Shown here: positions 23,545 through 29,378 of the stretch, piece by piece
Layout: every line of letters starts with the position of its first letter
Numbering within the stretch: the stretch's first letter is position 1
Assembly: GCF_016863295.1 (NCBI RefSeq)
Contig: NZ_BOOP01000057.1
Span: forward strand, 1-45,935
Length of the DNA stretch: 45,935 nucleotides
Source of the DNA: Planotetraspora phitsanulokensis
Lineage (GTDB): Bacteria; Actinomycetota; Actinomycetes; Streptosporangiales; Streptosporangiaceae
Reading direction: 5' to 3'
Notes under the pieces: model-generated
Seen by the model: only the letters and a program-made list of their open reading frames with translations
The model's database searches: none
What the model was told of the DNA's origin: nothing
Made by a program: the position numbers and the translations under genes

Positions 23545-24048
23545 TCAGCGTCTACCCGCCAGGACGTTTCGGGCGACGGCCTTACGTTCGGCGGCTTCCC
23601 GCTCCGCCGCCTGCTGTTCAGCCGCCACGCGGACGTCGTAGGCCGCGCGGGCGGCGGCGATCTGGTTCTGGTGCTCTTCGGTCCAGGTGACCAGGGCGCG
23701 GATGGTCTCATGCAAGGTCGCGCCCATGGGGGTGAGCTCGTAGTCCACGCGCGGCGGCACCGTCGGATGCACGGTGCGGCCCACCAGACCGTCGCGCTCC
23801 AGGTGGCGCAGGGTCCGGGTGAGCATCCGCTGGCTGATCCCGTCGATCATGCGGCGTAGTTCGGTGAAGCGCAGGGTGCGCCGATCGAGCAGAGCGATGA
23901 CCAGCAGCGACCACTTGTCGGCGACACGATCGAGAATCTGCCGGACCTCGCAGTCCTCCCGGGTGTCCCATTGCAGAACGTCGTAATCGCCGCCGGTATC
24001 CCCGCAGTAACCGACGGACTTCGAAGTGCCGTCTTCCATGGTCATCAA
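23545..24048 (-). CDS. HxlR-family transcriptional regulator
   Basis: 167 aa. The HxlR winged helix spans about 30-120: 'CEVRQILDRVADKWSLLVIALLDRRTLRFTELRRMIDGISQRMLTRTLRHLERDGLV' in shortened form, with the N-terminal conserved Cys (in REDCEV) that senses electrophiles in YodB/HypR-type members. A long charged helix at the end is rich in Ala, Glu and Arg (AAEQQAAEREAAERKA). The gene is divergent from the DHA2 pump at 24139, with a 90-bp gap, the usual arrangement for a local repressor of an efflux gene. In-frame ATGs at 24048, 24045 and 24039 are all possible starts; none has a strong ribosome site. Confidence 0.9.
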   Translation of the reverse strand: MMTMEDGTSKSVGYCGDTGGDYDVLQWDTREDCEVRQILDRVADKWSLLVIALLDRRTLRFTELRRMIDGISQRMLTRTLRHLERDGLVGRTVHPTVPPRVDYELTPMGATLHETIRALVTWTEEHQNQIAAARAAYDVRVAAEQQAAEREAAERKAVARNVLAGRR

Positions 24049-24138
24049 TAGTGACCAACCATGCTGCTAGTTACAAGAGGGAACCGGCAGCCGTGTAAGT
24101 AACCGCGAGTCGGTCCCGTTCCCCGAGAGGAATGGACC
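24049..24138. promoter_or_regulatory. Divergent HxlR / DHA2 pump control region
   Basis: A/T-richer than its surroundings. Direct repeats TAGTGAC (24049-24055) and TAGTTAC (24068-24074) are 19 bp apart, and GTAAC recurs at 24099-24103, in inverted orientation to the GTTAC at 24070-24074. These are candidate HxlR half-sites. The pump's ribosome site GAGAGGA closes the region. Confidence 0.45.
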
Positions 24139-25572
24139 ATGTCCCCACCGAACGACCGCATGGACGTACGCGCCTGGAGCGTGCTGTTCGTACTGGGCGG
24201 AGCGATCTTCCTGGAAGGGATCGACGTGGCGATGCTGAATGTGGCATTGCCGGCGATCCGAGCAGATCTGGGTTTGTCCACAGGGATGCTCAGCGGCGTG
24301 GTCAGCGCCTACGTGCTCGGCTACGGCGGGTTCATGCTGCTGGGCGGCCGCACCGCCGATCTGCTGGGCCGCCGCCGCATGTTCCTGACCTGGCTGACCG
24401 TCTTCCTGATCTTCTCAGGTCTGGGCGGCTTGGCCACCGAAGGCTGGATGCTCCTGGTCGCCCGATTCGTCACCGGCGTCGCCGCCGCGTTCATGGCGCC
24501 CGCCGGGCTGGCGCTGGTCACCGGCAACTTCCCCGAGGGCCCGCAGCGCACCAAGGCCCTTGGGGTGTACGCCGGAACAGCCTCGGGCGGGTTCTGCCTC
24601 GGCCTTGTCGCCGGCGGCCTGCTGACCTCGATCGGCTGGAGGTGGGTATTCTTCGCCCCGGTGGCGCTGTCAGCGGTGATCTTGCTGGCGGCGATCCCCC
24701 TCCTCAAGGATTCCGGCACACCGGAGCGTTCGCGAGGCGGCTTCGACCTGGCCGGGGCGTTCAGCATCACCGGCACGATGGTGCTGCTGGTGTACGGAGT
24801 GGTCCGGCTGGAGGACCCCAGGAACGACACCTGGATCACGATCGCGGCCTTCTTCGCGGGACTGGTACTGCTGACGGCCTTCATCATGATCGAACGGCGG
24901 GCGGCCAACCCCCTGGTGAGCTTGGGGATCCTGCGCTCGGGCCCCCTCGTCCGAGCCAACCTGGGGGCGCTGCTGTTTCTCGCCTCGTTCGCCGGCTTCC
25001 AGTTCCTGGTGACCCTCTACCTCCAGGAACTGCGCGGCTGGAGCACCCTGCAAACCGGCCTGGCCATGCTGGTGATCGGCATTGACACCGTCCTGGCCCC
25101 GACTGTGACGCCGCGCCTGGTGAGCAGGTTCGGCAACGTCCGCGTGCTGTTCGGCGGGCTGGTCCTGGCAGTCGTGGCCTACGCGCTGTTCCTGCCGATC
25201 GGGCTGGACTGGGCCTACGCCGCCATGTTCCCGACCATGGTCCTGCTCGGCCTGGCGTTCTCCCTGACCTATGGTCCGCTGACCATGGCCGCCACCGAAG
25301 GCATCGACGAACACCAGCACGGCCTGGCCGGCGGCCTTCTCTACACCGCGATGCAGTTCGGCACCGCGCTGGGTCTGTCAGCGGTGACCGCCGTGAACAT
25401 CGCGACGCTCGGCGACGCCACGACCTCCCAAGCGGAGCTCGACGCCGTCCGAACCGCCCTGACCGTGCCCGCAGCCGCCGCGGTCGTCGCCGTGGTGATC
25501 ACGGCCTTCGGCATCCGCGCCCGCACCGGCACTCCGGACACCGCCCCAGCGCCCGCCAGGGCCTCGGCCTGA
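24139..25572 (+). CDS. DHA2-family (EmrB/QacA-type) MFS efflux transporter
   Basis: 477 aa with about 14 transmembrane helices. Family marks: motif D1-like 'LNVALPAIRADLGLS' after TM1, motif A 'GGRTADLLGRRRMF' between TM2 and TM3, motif B 'ARFVTGVAAAFMAPAGLALV' in TM4, and motif C-like 'GVYAGTASGGFCLGLVAGGLL' in TM5. Proteins of this class expel drugs with proton exchange across the inner membrane. GAGAGGA lies 7 nt before ATG 24139. It forms an operon with the PPOX-fold gene 18 nt downstream and is probably repressed by the divergent HxlR protein. Confidence 0.93.
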   Translation: MSPPNDRMDVRAWSVLFVLGGAIFLEGIDVAMLNVALPAIRADLGLSTGMLSGVVSAYVLGYGGFMLLGGRTADLLGRRRMFLTWLTVFLIFSGLGGLATEGWMLLVARFVTGVAAAFMAPAGLALVTGNFPEGPQRTKALGVYAGTASGGFCLGLVAGGLLTSIGWRWVFFAPVALSAVILLAAIPLLKDSGTPERSRGGFDLAGAFSITGTMVLLVYGVVRLEDPRNDTWITIAAFFAGLVLLTAFIMIERRAANPLVSLGILRSGPLVRANLGALLFLASFAGFQFLVTLYLQELRGWSTLQTGLAMLVIGIDTVLAPTVTPRLVSRFGNVRVLFGGLVLAVVAYALFLPIGLDWAYAAMFPTMVLLGLAFSLTYGPLTMAATEGIDEHQHGLAGGLLYTAMQFGTALGLSAVTAVNIATLGDATTSQAELDAVRTALTVPAAAAVVAVVITAFGIRARTGTPDTAPAPARASA

Positions 25573-25590
25573 CCACGATCGGAGGATCGC

Positions 25591-26076
25591 ATGGCCACCA
25601 AGGTGACGTCGTTCACCGTCGTCGAGGAGCAGTTCAACGCCTACATCGGCGACATCGTCTACGCCACCATGACCACCGTGGACGCCAAGGGCCGTCCACG
25701 GGCGCGCGTGCTGATCCCGATCTGGGAGGTGGTCGACGGCCGCCCGGCCGGCTGGCTCGCCACCTACAGGACTCCGGTCAAGGCGGCGCACCTCGCGAAG
25801 AACCCGCACGCCACCTTCTCCTACTGGACGCCTCGCCAGAACGCCGTGAACGTCGACACCGTGGCCGAATGGATCGACGACGCGGAGATCAAGCGCCGGG
25901 TGTGGGCTCTTTACCGGAAAGGCAGCCCACACGGGGCCGGCTACGACCTGGGGAACTTCTGGAAGAGCCCCGAAGATCCCGAGCTGCACGTGCTACGACT
26001 GACCCCGTGGCGCGTCCAGGTCATCCGGGGCAGCGACCTGCACAGCAGGATCTGGCAGGCCGAAGGCACCGCCTGA
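25591..26076 (+). CDS. Pyridoxamine 5'-phosphate oxidase-fold (split barrel) protein
   Basis: 161 aa. Split-barrel flavin-binding fold, recognised from 'YIGDIVYATMTTVDAKGRPRARVLIPIWEV' in shortened form and the 'TPVKAAHLAKNPHATFSYWTP' strand-helix pattern, where a Lys and the HLAKNP motif contact FMN phosphate in relatives. It could bind FMN, F420 or haem. The role is probably general stress or redox chemistry of compounds exported by the neighbouring pump (inference). ATG 25591 has GGAGG 6 nt upstream. Transcription likely ends at the hairpins around 26092-26154. Confidence 0.85.
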   Translation: MATKVTSFTVVEEQFNAYIGDIVYATMTTVDAKGRPRARVLIPIWEVVDGRPAGWLATYRTPVKAAHLAKNPHATFSYWTPRQNAVNVDTVAEWIDDAEIKRRVWALYRKGSPHGAGYDLGNFWKSPEDPELHVLRLTPWRVQVIRGSDLHSRIWQAEGTA

Positions 26077-26156: not shown

Positions 26157-27062
26157 CTACCGGCGATGCCTTTTCGCGAGATCCGCGAAAAGGGCGATCG
26201 TGCGGTCCTGATCTTCTGGAAGTCCGACGGGGAAGATGATCAGCTCGGTTGCCCCGGCGTCGGCGAAGCGGCCTACCGTTTCTTCGACGTGGGCCTCGTC
26301 GCCGGCGACCAGAGTGTCGTCCGGTCCTGTGGAGCCCTGCCGATCGAGCAAGGCGTGGAAGGTGGGCAGTGTCGCGGCTTGGCGGAAGTCCGTGTTGACG
26401 CGCCGGCGTGTTCCATCCACGTCCGAGGTCACGGACGCAAGCAGCCCGACGGCGATGCGTGGTGCCGCTCGTCCCGCTGCGGCGGTGGTGACGGTGGGAA
26501 CCACGATCTCGCCGAGGAAGCGGGGCGTCGTCCACATCGTGAGCGCGCCGTCGGCCCGTTCGCCGGCGAGGGCGAGCATGCGAGGCCCGTTCGCGGCGAG
26601 CAGGAGGGATGGCGGGATCACGCCAGGGGCGGCGACGCCGCCGACCGCAGTGATCGATCGACCGCGGACCTCCACCTCCTCACCCCGCAGGACCGGGCCG
26701 AGGACGTCCAGGACTTCCCGTGTGTGCTGTACGGGCGGCTGCCAGGTCAGCCCGTACCTGCTTTCGACGACCGGTGCGTGGCTCGGACCTATGCCGAGCG
26801 TCAGCCGCCCACCGGTTGCGGCGTGTGCGGTCAGCGCCTGGGCGGCCAGGGCGAGAGGATGTCGTGGGTAGGTCCCCACGACGGACGTGGCCAGCTCGAT
26901 GTCCGGTGCGCGGTCGCCCACTGCGGCGAACACCGTCAGCGGATCCCATCCGCCGTGCTCACCGAGCCAGAAACGCGAGAAGCCGTTCGCCGCTGCGCGC
27001 TCGATCTCCGTCAGGAGTTCCGGGATGGGCGCGGCACCGTAGCTCGACAGTCCGATTTCCAT
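26157..27062 (-). CDS. LLM-class (luciferase-like) F420/FMN oxidoreductase
   Basis: 301 aa. TIM-barrel bacterial-luciferase family: 'RFWLGEHGGWDPLTVFAAVG' (N-terminal barrel strand and helix), 'IELATSVVGTYPRHPLALAAQALT' and 'GGRLTLGIGPSHAPVVE' are typical of actinobacterial F420-dependent LLM proteins, with 'LLAANGPRMLALAGERADGALTMWTTP' further on. It transfers hydride from reduced F420 or FMN to an unknown substrate in the cytoplasm. ATG 27060-27062 follows GAGGAG by 8 nt. A near-palindrome GAACA-N9-TGTTC at 27092-27110 around TGATCA lies just upstream and may be its operator. Confidence 0.9.
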   Translation of the reverse strand: MEIGLSSYGAAPIPELLTEIERAAANGFSRFWLGEHGGWDPLTVFAAVGDRAPDIELATSVVGTYPRHPLALAAQALTAHAATGGRLTLGIGPSHAPVVESRYGLTWQPPVQHTREVLDVLGPVLRGEEVEVRGRSITAVGGVAAPGVIPPSLLLAANGPRMLALAGERADGALTMWTTPRFLGEIVVPTVTTAAAGRAAPRIAVGLLASVTSDVDGTRRRVNTDFRQAATLPTFHALLDRQGSTGPDDTLVAGDEAHVEETVGRFADAGATELIIFPVGLPEDQDRTIALFADLAKRHRR

Positions 27063-27191: not shown

Positions 27192-27569
27192 TCACAGCGT
27201 CACCTCGATCCCGATCCACGGGTCAGTGCCACCGCGGAGCCGGTTCCACCAGAACACCAACCGAGCCGCGGGATACCTGCGCGACATGAGTCTCCGGACG
27301 CGGGCCGTCTGCGTCTCGTCCAGAAGCCGGGCCGTGGCCGCCGCGCTCGGCGCGCCCTCCGCGATGCGGCCCCTGCCGTCGCATGGTGCGACCACGACGG
27401 ACGTGTTGTTGCGGATGCGTTTGGCCTTGCCGCTGTCTCGCGCCGTCAACACGAACAGTTCGTCGCCGTCGACGACGAACCCGACCGGAGTCGGTACGGC
27501 CCGGCCGTTCTTGCGGAAGGTGGTCAGGCTGATGTGCCGGCCGCGGATGATCTCGTTCAGCCAGGTCAT
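27192..27569 (-). CDS. PPOX-class F420-dependent oxidoreductase
   Basis: 125 aa split barrel, shorter than the PPOX-fold protein at 25591. 'HISLTTFRKNGRAVPTPVGFVVDGDELFVLTARDSGKAKRIRNN' in shortened form is typical of the actinobacterial Rv2061-like F420/PPOX group, and the C-terminus 'YPAARLVFWWNRLRGG' is characteristic of it. The ATG (27567-27569) overlaps the stop of a 35-codon leader ORF (ATGA), and GAGGA 5 nt upstream is the ribosome site, so translation is probably coupled to the leader. Transcription should start at the TetR-type operator-promoter at 27693-27744, a copy of the one driving the SDR. Substrate unknown. Confidence 0.88.
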   Translation of the reverse strand: MTWLNEIIRGRHISLTTFRKNGRAVPTPVGFVVDGDELFVLTARDSGKAKRIRNNTSVVVAPCDGRGRIAEGAPSAAATARLLDETQTARVRRLMSRRYPAARLVFWWNRLRGGTDPWIGIEVTL

Positions 27570-27673
27570 GCCGTCCTCGCCGCCATGGCGAAGCTCGCGC
27601 CTCTCCAGGCTTCCGGCATCGTCCAGCCGTGCCGCCTGGACACGTCGGCTCCGGTGTGGGGCGGTCGAGGCAT
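27566..27673 (-). CDS. 35-codon leader ORF, relic of the SDR 5' end
   Basis: The ATG (27671-27673) has the same CTGGAGGAACC ribosome-site context as the SDR gene and shares about 33 nt of coding start with it, including GCCGACGTG at the same distance from the ATG. The peptide begins MPRPPHTGADV, against MPRQRWTTADV in the SDR, and then diverges. Its TGA overlaps the F420/PPOX ATG. Most likely it is a by-product of duplication of the SDR control region, kept as a translated leader. It was too short to be called by length alone. Confidence 0.5.
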   Translation of the reverse strand: MPRPPHTGADVSRRHGWTMPEAWRGASFAMAARTA

Positions 27674-27692
27674 GGTTCCTCCAGGTAGATTC

Positions 27693-27744
27693 GGGGCGCT
27701 CGTTCCGGTTAGGAATATACCGGAACGAGCGCCCCGCTTATCAA
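27693..27744 (-). promoter_or_regulatory. Operator-promoter copy 1 (upstream of leader ORF and F420/PPOX gene)
   Basis: Perfect 17-bp arms GGGGCGCTCGTTCCGGT (27693-27709) and its complement (27719-27735) around a 9-nt centre. On the minus strand TTGATA (27739-27744) and TATATT (27714-27719) form -35 and -10 boxes 19 nt apart, with the -10 in the centre of the palindrome. Binding of the adjacent TetR would block it. Confidence 0.8.
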
Positions 27745-27763
27745 GAGCCTGGCTGCTCGGTGG

Positions 27764-28363
27764 TCACGTCCGGGGTTCTCGCGTTGACGTCTCGGCGGAG
27801 TCCGGTACGGCCAGGCCGGCCCGGATCACCGGGTAGACGCGGCGCATCAGTTCGCTGTCGCCGCGGAAGCGCCGCATCGCCTGCAGGCCGACGATCAGAG
27901 TCTTGATGTCGGCCGCATCCAGGTCGGGCCGTACGGTCCCCGCACGCTGGGCCTGGGTGAGGATCTCGGTCATCATTCCCGTGAACTCCTTCTCGGCGTC
28001 GGGCAGAGCCGCCGCCAGATCGAAGCCGCTCCCTGCGAAAGCTTCAGTGAGCCCCAGATCGGTCGCGCCTTGCTCGGCCATCTGGAAGAGGAACGCGTAC
28101 AGCCCTTCTCCGGGGTCGGCCGCCGCCTGTGCGCGCGTCCACTCGACGATCTGCCGCAACCGGTCGGCCACGATTGCCTGGAACAACGATTCCTTGGTGG
28201 GGAAATGCCGGTACACCGTGCCCGCGCCCACTCCCGCGCGGCGGGCGATCTCGTCGATCGGGACGCCCGCACCCTCCTCGGCGAACGTCTCGTAGGCGAC
28301 CTGCAACACGCGGGCCCGGTTACGGGCGGCGTCCGCGCGCAGCGGCCGGGATTTCTCAGTCAC
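27764..28363 (-). CDS. TetR-family repressor
   Basis: 199 aa. HTH at about 15-62 with 'VPIDEIARRAGVGAGTVYRHFPTKESLF' in shortened form, followed by a helical ligand domain ending 'MRRVYPVIRAGLAVPD'. The frame extends upstream, but GTG 28361-28363 has AAGGAG 7 nt before it and starts at the conserved TEKSRPLRADAARNR. It is divergent from the SDR, and a 43-bp palindrome lies 21 bp from its start; a second copy of the palindrome lies beyond its 3' end. It should repress the SDR, the leader-F420/PPOX unit and possibly itself. The inducing ligand is unknown. Confidence 0.92.
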   Translation of the reverse strand: MTEKSRPLRADAARNRARVLQVAYETFAEEGAGVPIDEIARRAGVGAGTVYRHFPTKESLFQAIVADRLRQIVEWTRAQAAADPGEGLYAFLFQMAEQGATDLGLTEAFAGSGFDLAAALPDAEKEFTGMMTEILTQAQRAGTVRPDLDAADIKTLIVGLQAMRRFRGDSELMRRVYPVIRAGLAVPDSAETSTREPRT

Positions 28364-28374
28364 AACGGGTCTCC

Positions 28375-28426
28375 TTGACAACCGGGGCGCGCGTTCCGGT
28401 ATGTTCCTAACCGGAACGAGCGCCCC
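28375..28426 (+). promoter_or_regulatory. Operator-promoter copy 2 (upstream of SDR)
   Basis: Arms GGGGCGCGCGTTCCGGT (28384-28400) and ACCGGAACGAGCGCCCC (28410-28426) pair with one mismatch around a 9-nt centre. TTGACA (28375-28380) and TATGTT (28400-28405) are 19 nt apart, as in copy 1. The 43-bp operator matches the reverse complement of copy 1 at 41 positions. Confidence 0.85.
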
Positions 28427-28445
28427 GATTATATCTGGAGGAACC

Positions 28446-29378
28446 ATGCCCCGACAGCGGTGGACCACCGCCGACGTGCCCGATCAGCGGGGCCGCGTCG
28501 CCGTGATCACCGGAGGCAACACCGGCATCGGCTTCGAGACCGCCAAGGTGCTCGCCGCACGCGGGGCGTCGGTGGTCCTCGCCGTACGGGACATGGACAA
28601 GGGCAAGCGGGCGGCAGCCGAGATCACGGCAGCCGCCCCAGACGCCGACGTCACGGTGCAACACCTCGATCTCGCTTCGCTGGCGTCGGTCCGCGCGGCC
28701 GCAGACGAACTGCGCTTCACCCGTGACCGCATCGACCTGTTGATCAACAACGCCGGACTCATGTACGCCCCGCAAGCGACCACGGTGGACGGCTTGGAGC
28801 TGCAGTTCGGCACCAATCACCTGGGCCACTTCGCTCTCACCGGGCTGCTGCTCGACAGAATGCTGCATGTCCCCGGCTCTCGCGTCGTCACCGTCAGCAG
28901 TGCAGGGCACCGGCAGGGCGGGCCGATCGACTTCGACGACCTCAACTGGAAGACCAGGAAGTACAGCCGGGTCGCCGCGTACGGGCACTCAAAGCTGGCC
29001 AACCTGATGTTCACCTACGAACTGCAGCGCAGGCTCGCGGGCAAGAGCGGGACCATCGCCGTCGCCGCGCACCCCGGAGGCTCCGACACTGGAGGGTCCA
29101 GAACGTCGGTTTCGCTGCAGCCCCTGTACTTCCGCGCGCTGTTCGCCCTGGTTCGGCCATTGCTGATCCAGCCCGCCGAGATGGGGGCGCTACCCCCGCT
29201 ACGCGCCGCGACCGACCCGTCCGTCCAAGGCGGCCAGTACTACGGCCCCGCGGGCTTCCAGGAGAGCAAGGGGCACCCGAAGATCGTCAAGTCGAGCGCA
29301 CAGTCCTACGACGAGGCCGCCCAGCGTCGGCTGTGGCTGATCTCAGAGAAACTGACCGCGGTGACGTTCCCGGTGTGA
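28446..29378 (+). CDS. Short-chain dehydrogenase/reductase (SDR), retinol-dehydrogenase-like
   Basis: 310 aa. Rossmann motif TGGNTGIG (about 22-29), NNAG motif (about 101-104), catalytic Ser in 'VTVSSAGHRQGG', and YxxxK as YGHSK, so the catalytic tetrad is complete. The extended N-terminus 'RWTTADVPDQRGRVAVITG' and the 'DFDDLNWKTRKYSRVAAYGHSK' region fit the retinol dehydrogenase/WW-oxidoreductase-like SDR branch common in actinobacteria. It uses NAD(P)H to reduce aldehydes or ketones, or the reverse. ATG 28446 has GGAGG 6 nt upstream. It is controlled by operator copy 2 and divergent from tetR. The substrate is probably related to the TetR ligand (inference). Confidence 0.92.
   Translation: MPRQRWTTADVPDQRGRVAVITGGNTGIGFETAKVLAARGASVVLAVRDMDKGKRAAAEITAAAPDADVTVQHLDLASLASVRAAADELRFTRDRIDLLINNAGLMYAPQATTVDGLELQFGTNHLGHFALTGLLLDRMLHVPGSRVVTVSSAGHRQGGPIDFDDLNWKTRKYSRVAAYGHSKLANLMFTYELQRRLAGKSGTIAVAAHPGGSDTGGSRTSVSLQPLYFRALFALVRPLLIQPAEMGALPPLRAATDPSVQGGQYYGPAGFQESKGHPKIVKSSAQSYDEAAQRRLWLISEKLTAVTFPV

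Follow-up and report, generated by a model that had tools for sequence, protein, structure and literature searches.

Intragenomic copying of promoters was reportedly described by Matus-Garcia et al. under the title 'Promoter propagation in prokaryotes' and in a further paper from 2014. The mycobacterial regulator Rv0067c is a putative counterpart of the TetR repressor that is the subject of this work. According to PMC5906472, a gene that needs expression often receives a copy of a promoter already present elsewhere, and a survey of mycobacterial TetR proteins gives a significant intergenic motif for Rv0067c (PMC4482099). That motif is the one possible report of the operator; no literature on the locus itself was found among the matches listed. 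The locus lies on a stretch of DNA of 45,935 nucleotides from Planotetraspora phitsanulokensis (contig NZ_BOOP01000057.1 of assembly GCF_016863295.1), which is one entire contig and is referred to here as the window. In it the repressor gene, designated tetR1 (27764-28363, minus strand), is flanked by two inverted copies of a promoter-operator module, and with a probability of about 0.76 we conclude that the divergent control region of TetR1 and an SDR oxidoreductase was copied, inverted, to the 3' end of tetR1, where it became the promoter-operator of genes for F420-dependent oxidoreductases.

Copy A (27641-27744, minus strand) lies downstream of tetR1 and copy B (28375-28478, plus strand) upstream. 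An earlier reading of the window (the sequence-only reading) had claimed an ungapped inverted match of 104 bp with about 87 identities, and alignment of the two copies without gaps gave 87 identical positions out of 104. Used as a blastn query against the whole genome, copy B matched itself (E 2.4e-48), copy A (E 1.8e-25) and, as a third match, the other strand of the copy A palindrome (E 1.0e-5), while no further copy of the module was found in the 9.17-Mb assembly at E<=0.001. A search with a 30-base operator pattern, allowing 3 mismatches at most, likewise had A and B as its sole matches in this genome. The layout listed by the sequence-only reading was present in full in both copies: a -35 (TTGATA in A, TTGACA in B), a 19-nt spacer, a -10 (TATATT in A, TATGTT in B), the ribosome site CTGGAGGAACC, an ATG and about 30 coding nt. 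The coding starts (ATG plus 33 nt) were identical at 25 of 36 positions, whereas 5000 random placements gave 20 at most, and in the genomes G001, G003 and G225 the corresponding values were 22, 24 and 23 of 36 (random maxima of 20, 20 and 22); the likeness of the two coding starts is genuine. Homologous upstream regions are found ahead of non-homologous genes in one genome. Copy B precedes the SDR gene (28446-29378, plus strand; 310 amino acids; NF004846/PRK06197, E 1.4e-147), and copy A precedes genes for a PPOX-class F420-dependent oxidoreductase (27192-27569, minus strand; 125 amino acids; TIGR03666, E 5e-36; Rv2061-like) and an LLM-class F420-dependent oxidoreductase (26157-27062, minus strand; 301 amino acids; TIGR03564, E 7e-85).

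The operators were surveyed in the 180 bp ahead of the matched tetR start in the best 80 of 554 tetR1 relatives. Two CGGNNCGNNCGNNCCG sites, scored at 20 core positions against a consensus derived from the same surveyed loci, were found at 18-20 of 20 in 75 of the 80 loci (53 at 20, 14 at 19 and 8 at 18), and the remaining 5 had a perfect first site (O1) and a weaker second site (O2; 16-17 of 20, with a wider window and a looser cut-off). Random 200-bp pieces of these loci, scored against the same consensus, reached 18 of 20 in 2 of 2000 cases and never scored higher. Among the 75 loci the gap between O1 and O2 ranged from 9 to 19 nt, O2 ended in TTCCG, the same direction as O1, in 10, a TAnnnT -10 stood directly 3' of O1 (0-1 nt) in 73, and TTGAC occurred within 10 nt 5' of O1 in 42. 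The layout of two operators around a -10 was seen at Mycobacterium, Pseudonocardia, Kibdelosporangium, Catellatospora and Streptomyces loci, with an SDR gene adjacent in nearly all, and the helix-turn-helix stretch ARRAGVGAGT[VL]YRHFPTK was common to the TetR1 of the window and the 7 outgroup proteins compared. The 43-bp palindrome with 17-bp arms that had been put forward is there as far as its arms are concerned (perfect in copy A, with one mismatch in copy B); it was set aside as a single site since both the spacing and the orientation of O2 vary, and each 16-mer is better read as a separate operator, the palindrome then being two operators placed head to head. In copy B, O1 is at 28383-28398 and O2 at 28412-28427; in copy A, on the minus strand, they are at 27721-27736 and 27692-27707. 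The exact operator pair occurs at one other place in the genome (C9:131895), which was judged chance-like, the reversed pattern giving 1-2 matches in 7 of 20 genomes.

Copy B appears to be a control region that works in both directions. The SDR -35 (28375-28380), which overlaps the tetR1 ribosome site AAGGAG (28371-28376, minus strand), precedes O1, the SDR -10 (28400-28405) lies between O1 and O2, and the SDR ribosome site GGAGG is at 28437-28441. Comparisons were made within the family, defined as the 17 of 341 searched genomes with tetR1 at E<=1e-70. A TAnnnT SDR -10 flanked by both operators was present in 15 of the 16 scored family B copies, and all 16 had a TANAAT on the opposite strand directly beyond O2, which is a plausible tetR1 -10 (TATAAT in the window, 28428-28433, minus strand). 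This backward hexamer was found in none of the 7 scored A copies, although all 7 retained the forward -10 (27714-27719 in the window); the bases following O2 are AAT in 7/7 A copies and ATT in 16/16 B copies, and for this reason no A copy keeps a backward TANAAT (the window has TAGATT). Copy A is consequently not the full clone of the control site that the sequence-only reading had taken it for. The -35 that the same reading assigned to copy A (27739-27744) holds for the three Planotetraspora A copies, where alone the TTGAT(A/T) form occurs, but not for the other four scored; the -35 of copy B is variable as well, with TTGACA in 6/16 scored family copies. The ribosome site GGAGG of copy A is at 27678-27682. 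Core positions of the A copies differed by a pairwise mean of 0.014 (n=7) versus 0.23 at four-fold sites of tetR, although A and B copies were recognised by their match to the core, so that low core divergence is partly built in; only the truncated A of G142 was set aside for want of a core. Non-core positions of the A copies differed by 0.18 and the central spacer by 0.27 (mean pairwise). Given the difference between cores and four-fold sites, we read the operator cores of the A copies as being under purifying selection.

Copy A was sought among the tetR1 holders, and with an exact-half-site pattern search in addition. Fifteen of the 17 family genomes were scanned by the operator pattern and two (G124 and G123) were checked separately; G123 has no operator pair at B and was excluded from the trees as too incomplete, and the A copy of G128, which has one O1 core mismatch and was missed by the scan, was added by hand. 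Seven genomes had a complete copy A (G000, G001, G003, G225 from Nonomuraea jiangxiensis, G125 from Herbidospora mongoliensis, and G127 and G128 from Herbidospora), one had a truncated copy and nine had none, so both one-copy and two-copy states exist around tetR1 in related genomes. In the truncated case (G142, Microbispora corallina) A is cut off past its centre by a deletion that reaches codon 6 of PPOX; it was excluded from the A-copy counts, and its 29-amino-acid LLM piece from the LLM tree. The A copies of Nonomuraea and Herbidospora are without a TTGA-type -35 but still have the -10, both operators and the region of the ribosome site, so that the second palindrome stands there with only part of the module's homology around it, which goes some way towards the finding that the sequence-only reading had named as refuting its view.

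The genes behind copy A differ between genomes. A leader open reading frame (ORF), PPOX and LLM follow it in G000 and G001, the leader and PPOX without LLM in G003, an 18-amino-acid leader ending at the LLM ribosome site and then LLM in G225, and LLM directly, without a leader, in the three Herbidospora copies. The view that A drives a leader and PPOX is thus borne out in Planotetraspora, but it is LLM that stands behind A in most two-copy genomes. PPOX follows A in Planotetraspora only and, with its first codons gone, the truncated A of Microbispora corallina; a search of 341 genomes at E<=1e-25 found it in 6, namely five Planotetraspora and G142, next to tetR1 or what remains of it. The junctions of A and LLM are unlike in G125 and in G127/G128, each lying at a short stretch common to the module and the LLM upstream region (GGAG or GACC), which suggests separate leader deletions in Herbidospora. 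Interruptions were seen in the LLM gene of G125 (247 of 301 codons open) and in the SDR genes of both G003 and G142.

In the window the leader (27566-27673, minus strand) has 35 codons, of which about 12 resemble the start of SDR and the rest are unrelated to it, and its TGA stop overlaps the ATG of PPOX (ATGA). The SDR likeness stopped near codon 12 in the four leaders read. Between G000 and G003 the rate of nonsynonymous change (dN) was 0.32 versus a synonymous rate (dS) of 0.41, with 18 of 35 codons differing by amino acid and 2 silently, and between G001 and G003 dN was 0.41 versus a dS of 0.52; the closest pair, G000 and G001, leans the opposite way (dN 0.05 versus dS 0.17) on 6 changed codons. 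A selected peptide was considered and rejected: the leader is little conserved (dN near dS in two pairs) and the three Herbidospora A copies have none, which makes a by-product carrying the start of SDR the probable reading.

Relatives in which LLM is not behind copy A point to where the module may have been inserted. Three of the four relatives with a close LLM that is not behind tetR1 or copy A (G360, G103 and G101; 86-89%) have it divergent from another TetR gene (TetR2), and no TetR1 operator pair was found between LLM and TetR2 in any of these three (best 15, 12 and 14 of 20, respectively). In G360 and G103 the TetR2-LLM pair lies just downstream of tetR1, where copy A stands in other genomes; G101 is without TetR1 at E<=1e-70. 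Among the 12 LLM loci next in the ranking (out of 140 of 341 genomes matching), 11 had a divergent TetR directly upstream, and in Kibdelosporangium (L023 and L025) the SDR-TetR1 pair has a TetR-LLM pair as its neighbour on the SDR side. In G101 (L187, 3600-3890) the LLM beside TetR2 is preceded by a 43-amino-acid ORF like the N-terminus of SDR, RTFALTGGNAGIG (blastp-short against the window SDR, 5e-5), and a weaker ORF of this kind lies ahead of LLM in G360 (L146; blastp-short 0.11).

In a protein tree of TetR and SDR with 17 outgroup rows, the seven genomes with copy A and G142 fell in one clade (98/92), which also holds three one-copy rows (G002 and two Herbidospora without A), and one gain followed by two losses of copy A is the simplest reading of this tree. 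Remnants of loss were found: in G002 a TTGATTAAG persists where tetR1 stops, 16 nt ahead of PPOX. G004 (L218) has a C-terminal tetR1 stump of about 41 codons fused to PPOX, with a short match to the end of LLM after it, and this decayed cassette has no SDR match within 8 kb and no TetR1 operator pair on its contig. In addition to its tetR1 locus (contig 29), G013 has on contig 31 (L189) a decayed stretch made up of the end of tetR1 (27 residues at 52%; a search of 400 bp gave E 6e-9), a piece of PPOX and pieces of LLM. The patchy distribution (17/341) suggests that the cassette moved by horizontal transfer.

A number of observations weigh against the preferred conclusion. Outside the family, TANAAT stands at the corresponding place in only 6 of 65 loci, making it a family-specific feature; the A copies of G000 and G001 still match a loose backward TANNNT; the copy A -35 is poor outside Planotetraspora; and a sigma-70 scan, restricted to spacers of 16-18 nt, found no promoter at A or B. 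Support for the split between A and B in the operator tree is only 40/67. The LLM tree leaves the copy-A LLMs ungrouped, with G127/G128 branching outside the TetR2-type LLMs, and constraining the copy-A LLMs together with the G013 fragments gave a p value of 0.128 in the approximately unbiased (AU) test, not rejected, and 0.042 with G206 added. G206 has a close LLM (77%) and no TetR1; beside this LLM there is a LysR-like gene (identified by eye) and no TetR, and no operator pair was found upstream of it (best 13/20). Finally, the nucleotide tree of tetR requires 4 changes and has the TetR2-type genomes in nested positions, which makes the reverse order of events possible. Horizontal transfer may be the cause of the disagreement between trees and leaves the order of events uncertain. 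As a separate observation, LLM and SDR (72%) lie in tandem on one strand in G206 (L188), an independent link between both enzymes.

The reverse order, with the same module and regulation but with copy A ancestral in the family and the TetR2-LLM pair of G360, G103 and G101 a later replacement, would account for the nested TetR2-type genomes, for the position of the G127/G128 LLMs and for a G206 LLM without divergent TetR. We consider it doubtful, one-copy lineages branching in the protein tree outside the clade with all the A copies and a divergent TetR being present at 11/12 of the more distant LLM loci. It is unlikely, if a more serious contender, that SDR was once duplicated entire, control region included, and that copy A is what was left when the body was deleted, with a stump retained before the next gene. 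The 25/36 nt shared by the coding starts would fit this, and the ORFs ahead of LLM in G101 and G360 indicate that deleted-SDR stumps seem to occur at such loci; against it, the likeness ends near codon 12 in every one of the four leaders read, and a tblastn search of the 17 family loci with SDR gave no SDR body 3' of tetR1. Two further explanations are highly improbable. The inverted repeats might serve TetR1 as a pair of looping sites and not be two independent promoters, as tetR1 does lie between operator pairs some 620-690 bp apart in the six genomes that have an exact pair at A and at B, but the separations (691, 673, 684, 646, 635 and 622 bp) keep no constant helical phase and copy A retains the -10 and ribosome-site region beyond the operators alone. 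Copy A, a GC-rich inverted repeat just 3' of the tetR1 stop, might equally be suspected of being a hairpin terminator or attenuator of the tetR1 mRNA, or an assembly artefact; no terminator-like site was found at copy A, no T-run follows it, its conserved parts are the operator cores and the -10, and it is present in seven separate genomes with a common difference from B.

The preferred reading, a divergent control region copied in inverted orientation, draws on what is established by sequence (the duplication, the operator architecture, its conservation, the one- and two-copy relatives and the loss remnants); from these, together with family knowledge and the anatomy of the locus, we infer how TetR1 would act, namely its binding, repression and ligand, as well as the transcription starts and the order of events. 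Copy B would be the old autoregulated divergent control region of SDR and tetR1. TetR1 dimers would occupy O1, between the SDR -35 and -10, and O2, between the SDR -10 and the tetR1 -10, and would in this way block RNA polymerase at both promoters of B (SDR and tetR1) and at the one promoter of A, until a ligand, probably a substrate of these oxidoreductases, releases all promoters together; SDR, TetR1, PPOX and LLM are accordingly expected to be induced jointly. Some 100 bp of this region, starting at the SDR -35 and reaching roughly codon 12 of SDR, would have been copied and inverted to the tetR1 3' end in an ancestor of the cassettes now found in Planotetraspora, Microbispora, Nonomuraea and Herbidospora. 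Copy A would then have been turned into the promoter-operator of LLM, whose relatives mostly adjoin their own divergent TetR, and in Planotetraspora of PPOX too, altered at the tetR-directed -10 and with its operator cores nearly fixed.

The suggestion that copy A is a second control site of the same TetR is likely to be right in view of the conserved operator cores and the one- and two-copy relatives, its regulation being what we infer. Copy A probably put the target of a neighbouring repressor under TetR1, and displacement of that repressor by the copied module is more probable than not. The fuller course of events, for which the chances are slightly better than even, is that the inverted module replaced TetR2 and its control region and lost the backward promoter, and was afterwards kept, lost or inherited with the captured oxidoreductases as a transferable cassette, the one-copy, two-copy, leader-less and decayed stages of which are represented in living relatives.

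The TetR1 protein (199 amino acids, GTG start) contains a TetR helix-turn-helix domain (PF00440; E 2e-14, 53.5 bits, cut-off 24) and an SbtR-like C-terminal domain (PF21597; E 1.1e-23, 83.8 bits, cut-off 27), and its nearest solved sequence is 2qwt_A (E 1.7e-56); no match to PPOX was found in the PDB at 1e-5. Adjoining the LLM gene (23545-26076) are an HxlR regulator gene divergent from that of an MFS exporter, followed by a gene for another PNPOx-type protein.

The gain of a regulon member is usually inferred from end states, whereas here many stages can be seen in relatives, namely genomes with one copy or with two, neighbours that have a rival repressor, versions without a leader, and decayed remnants. 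A further product of the case is a testable predicted operator, consisting of two CGGNNCGNNCGNNCCG sites, for an actinobacterial TetR-SDR pair, mycobacteria included. As in divergent regions of the TetR/QacR type, a tetR gene diverges from its target over a short common operator region; unlike them, this region has two operators of variable spacing and orientation around a -10, and the tetR 3' end bears a further copy of the control region. Promoter copying as a kind of event is already known, and the present locus is a well-resolved example in which copying of its own control module gave a repressor a target. In common with promoter propagation, an existing promoter region was copied before an unrelated gene, which would come under that promoter; in contrast to it, the copy brings along the two operators of the local repressor together with a ribosome site and first codons, faces the original across the repressor gene in inverted orientation, no longer has the backward hexamer and has apparently displaced another repressor.

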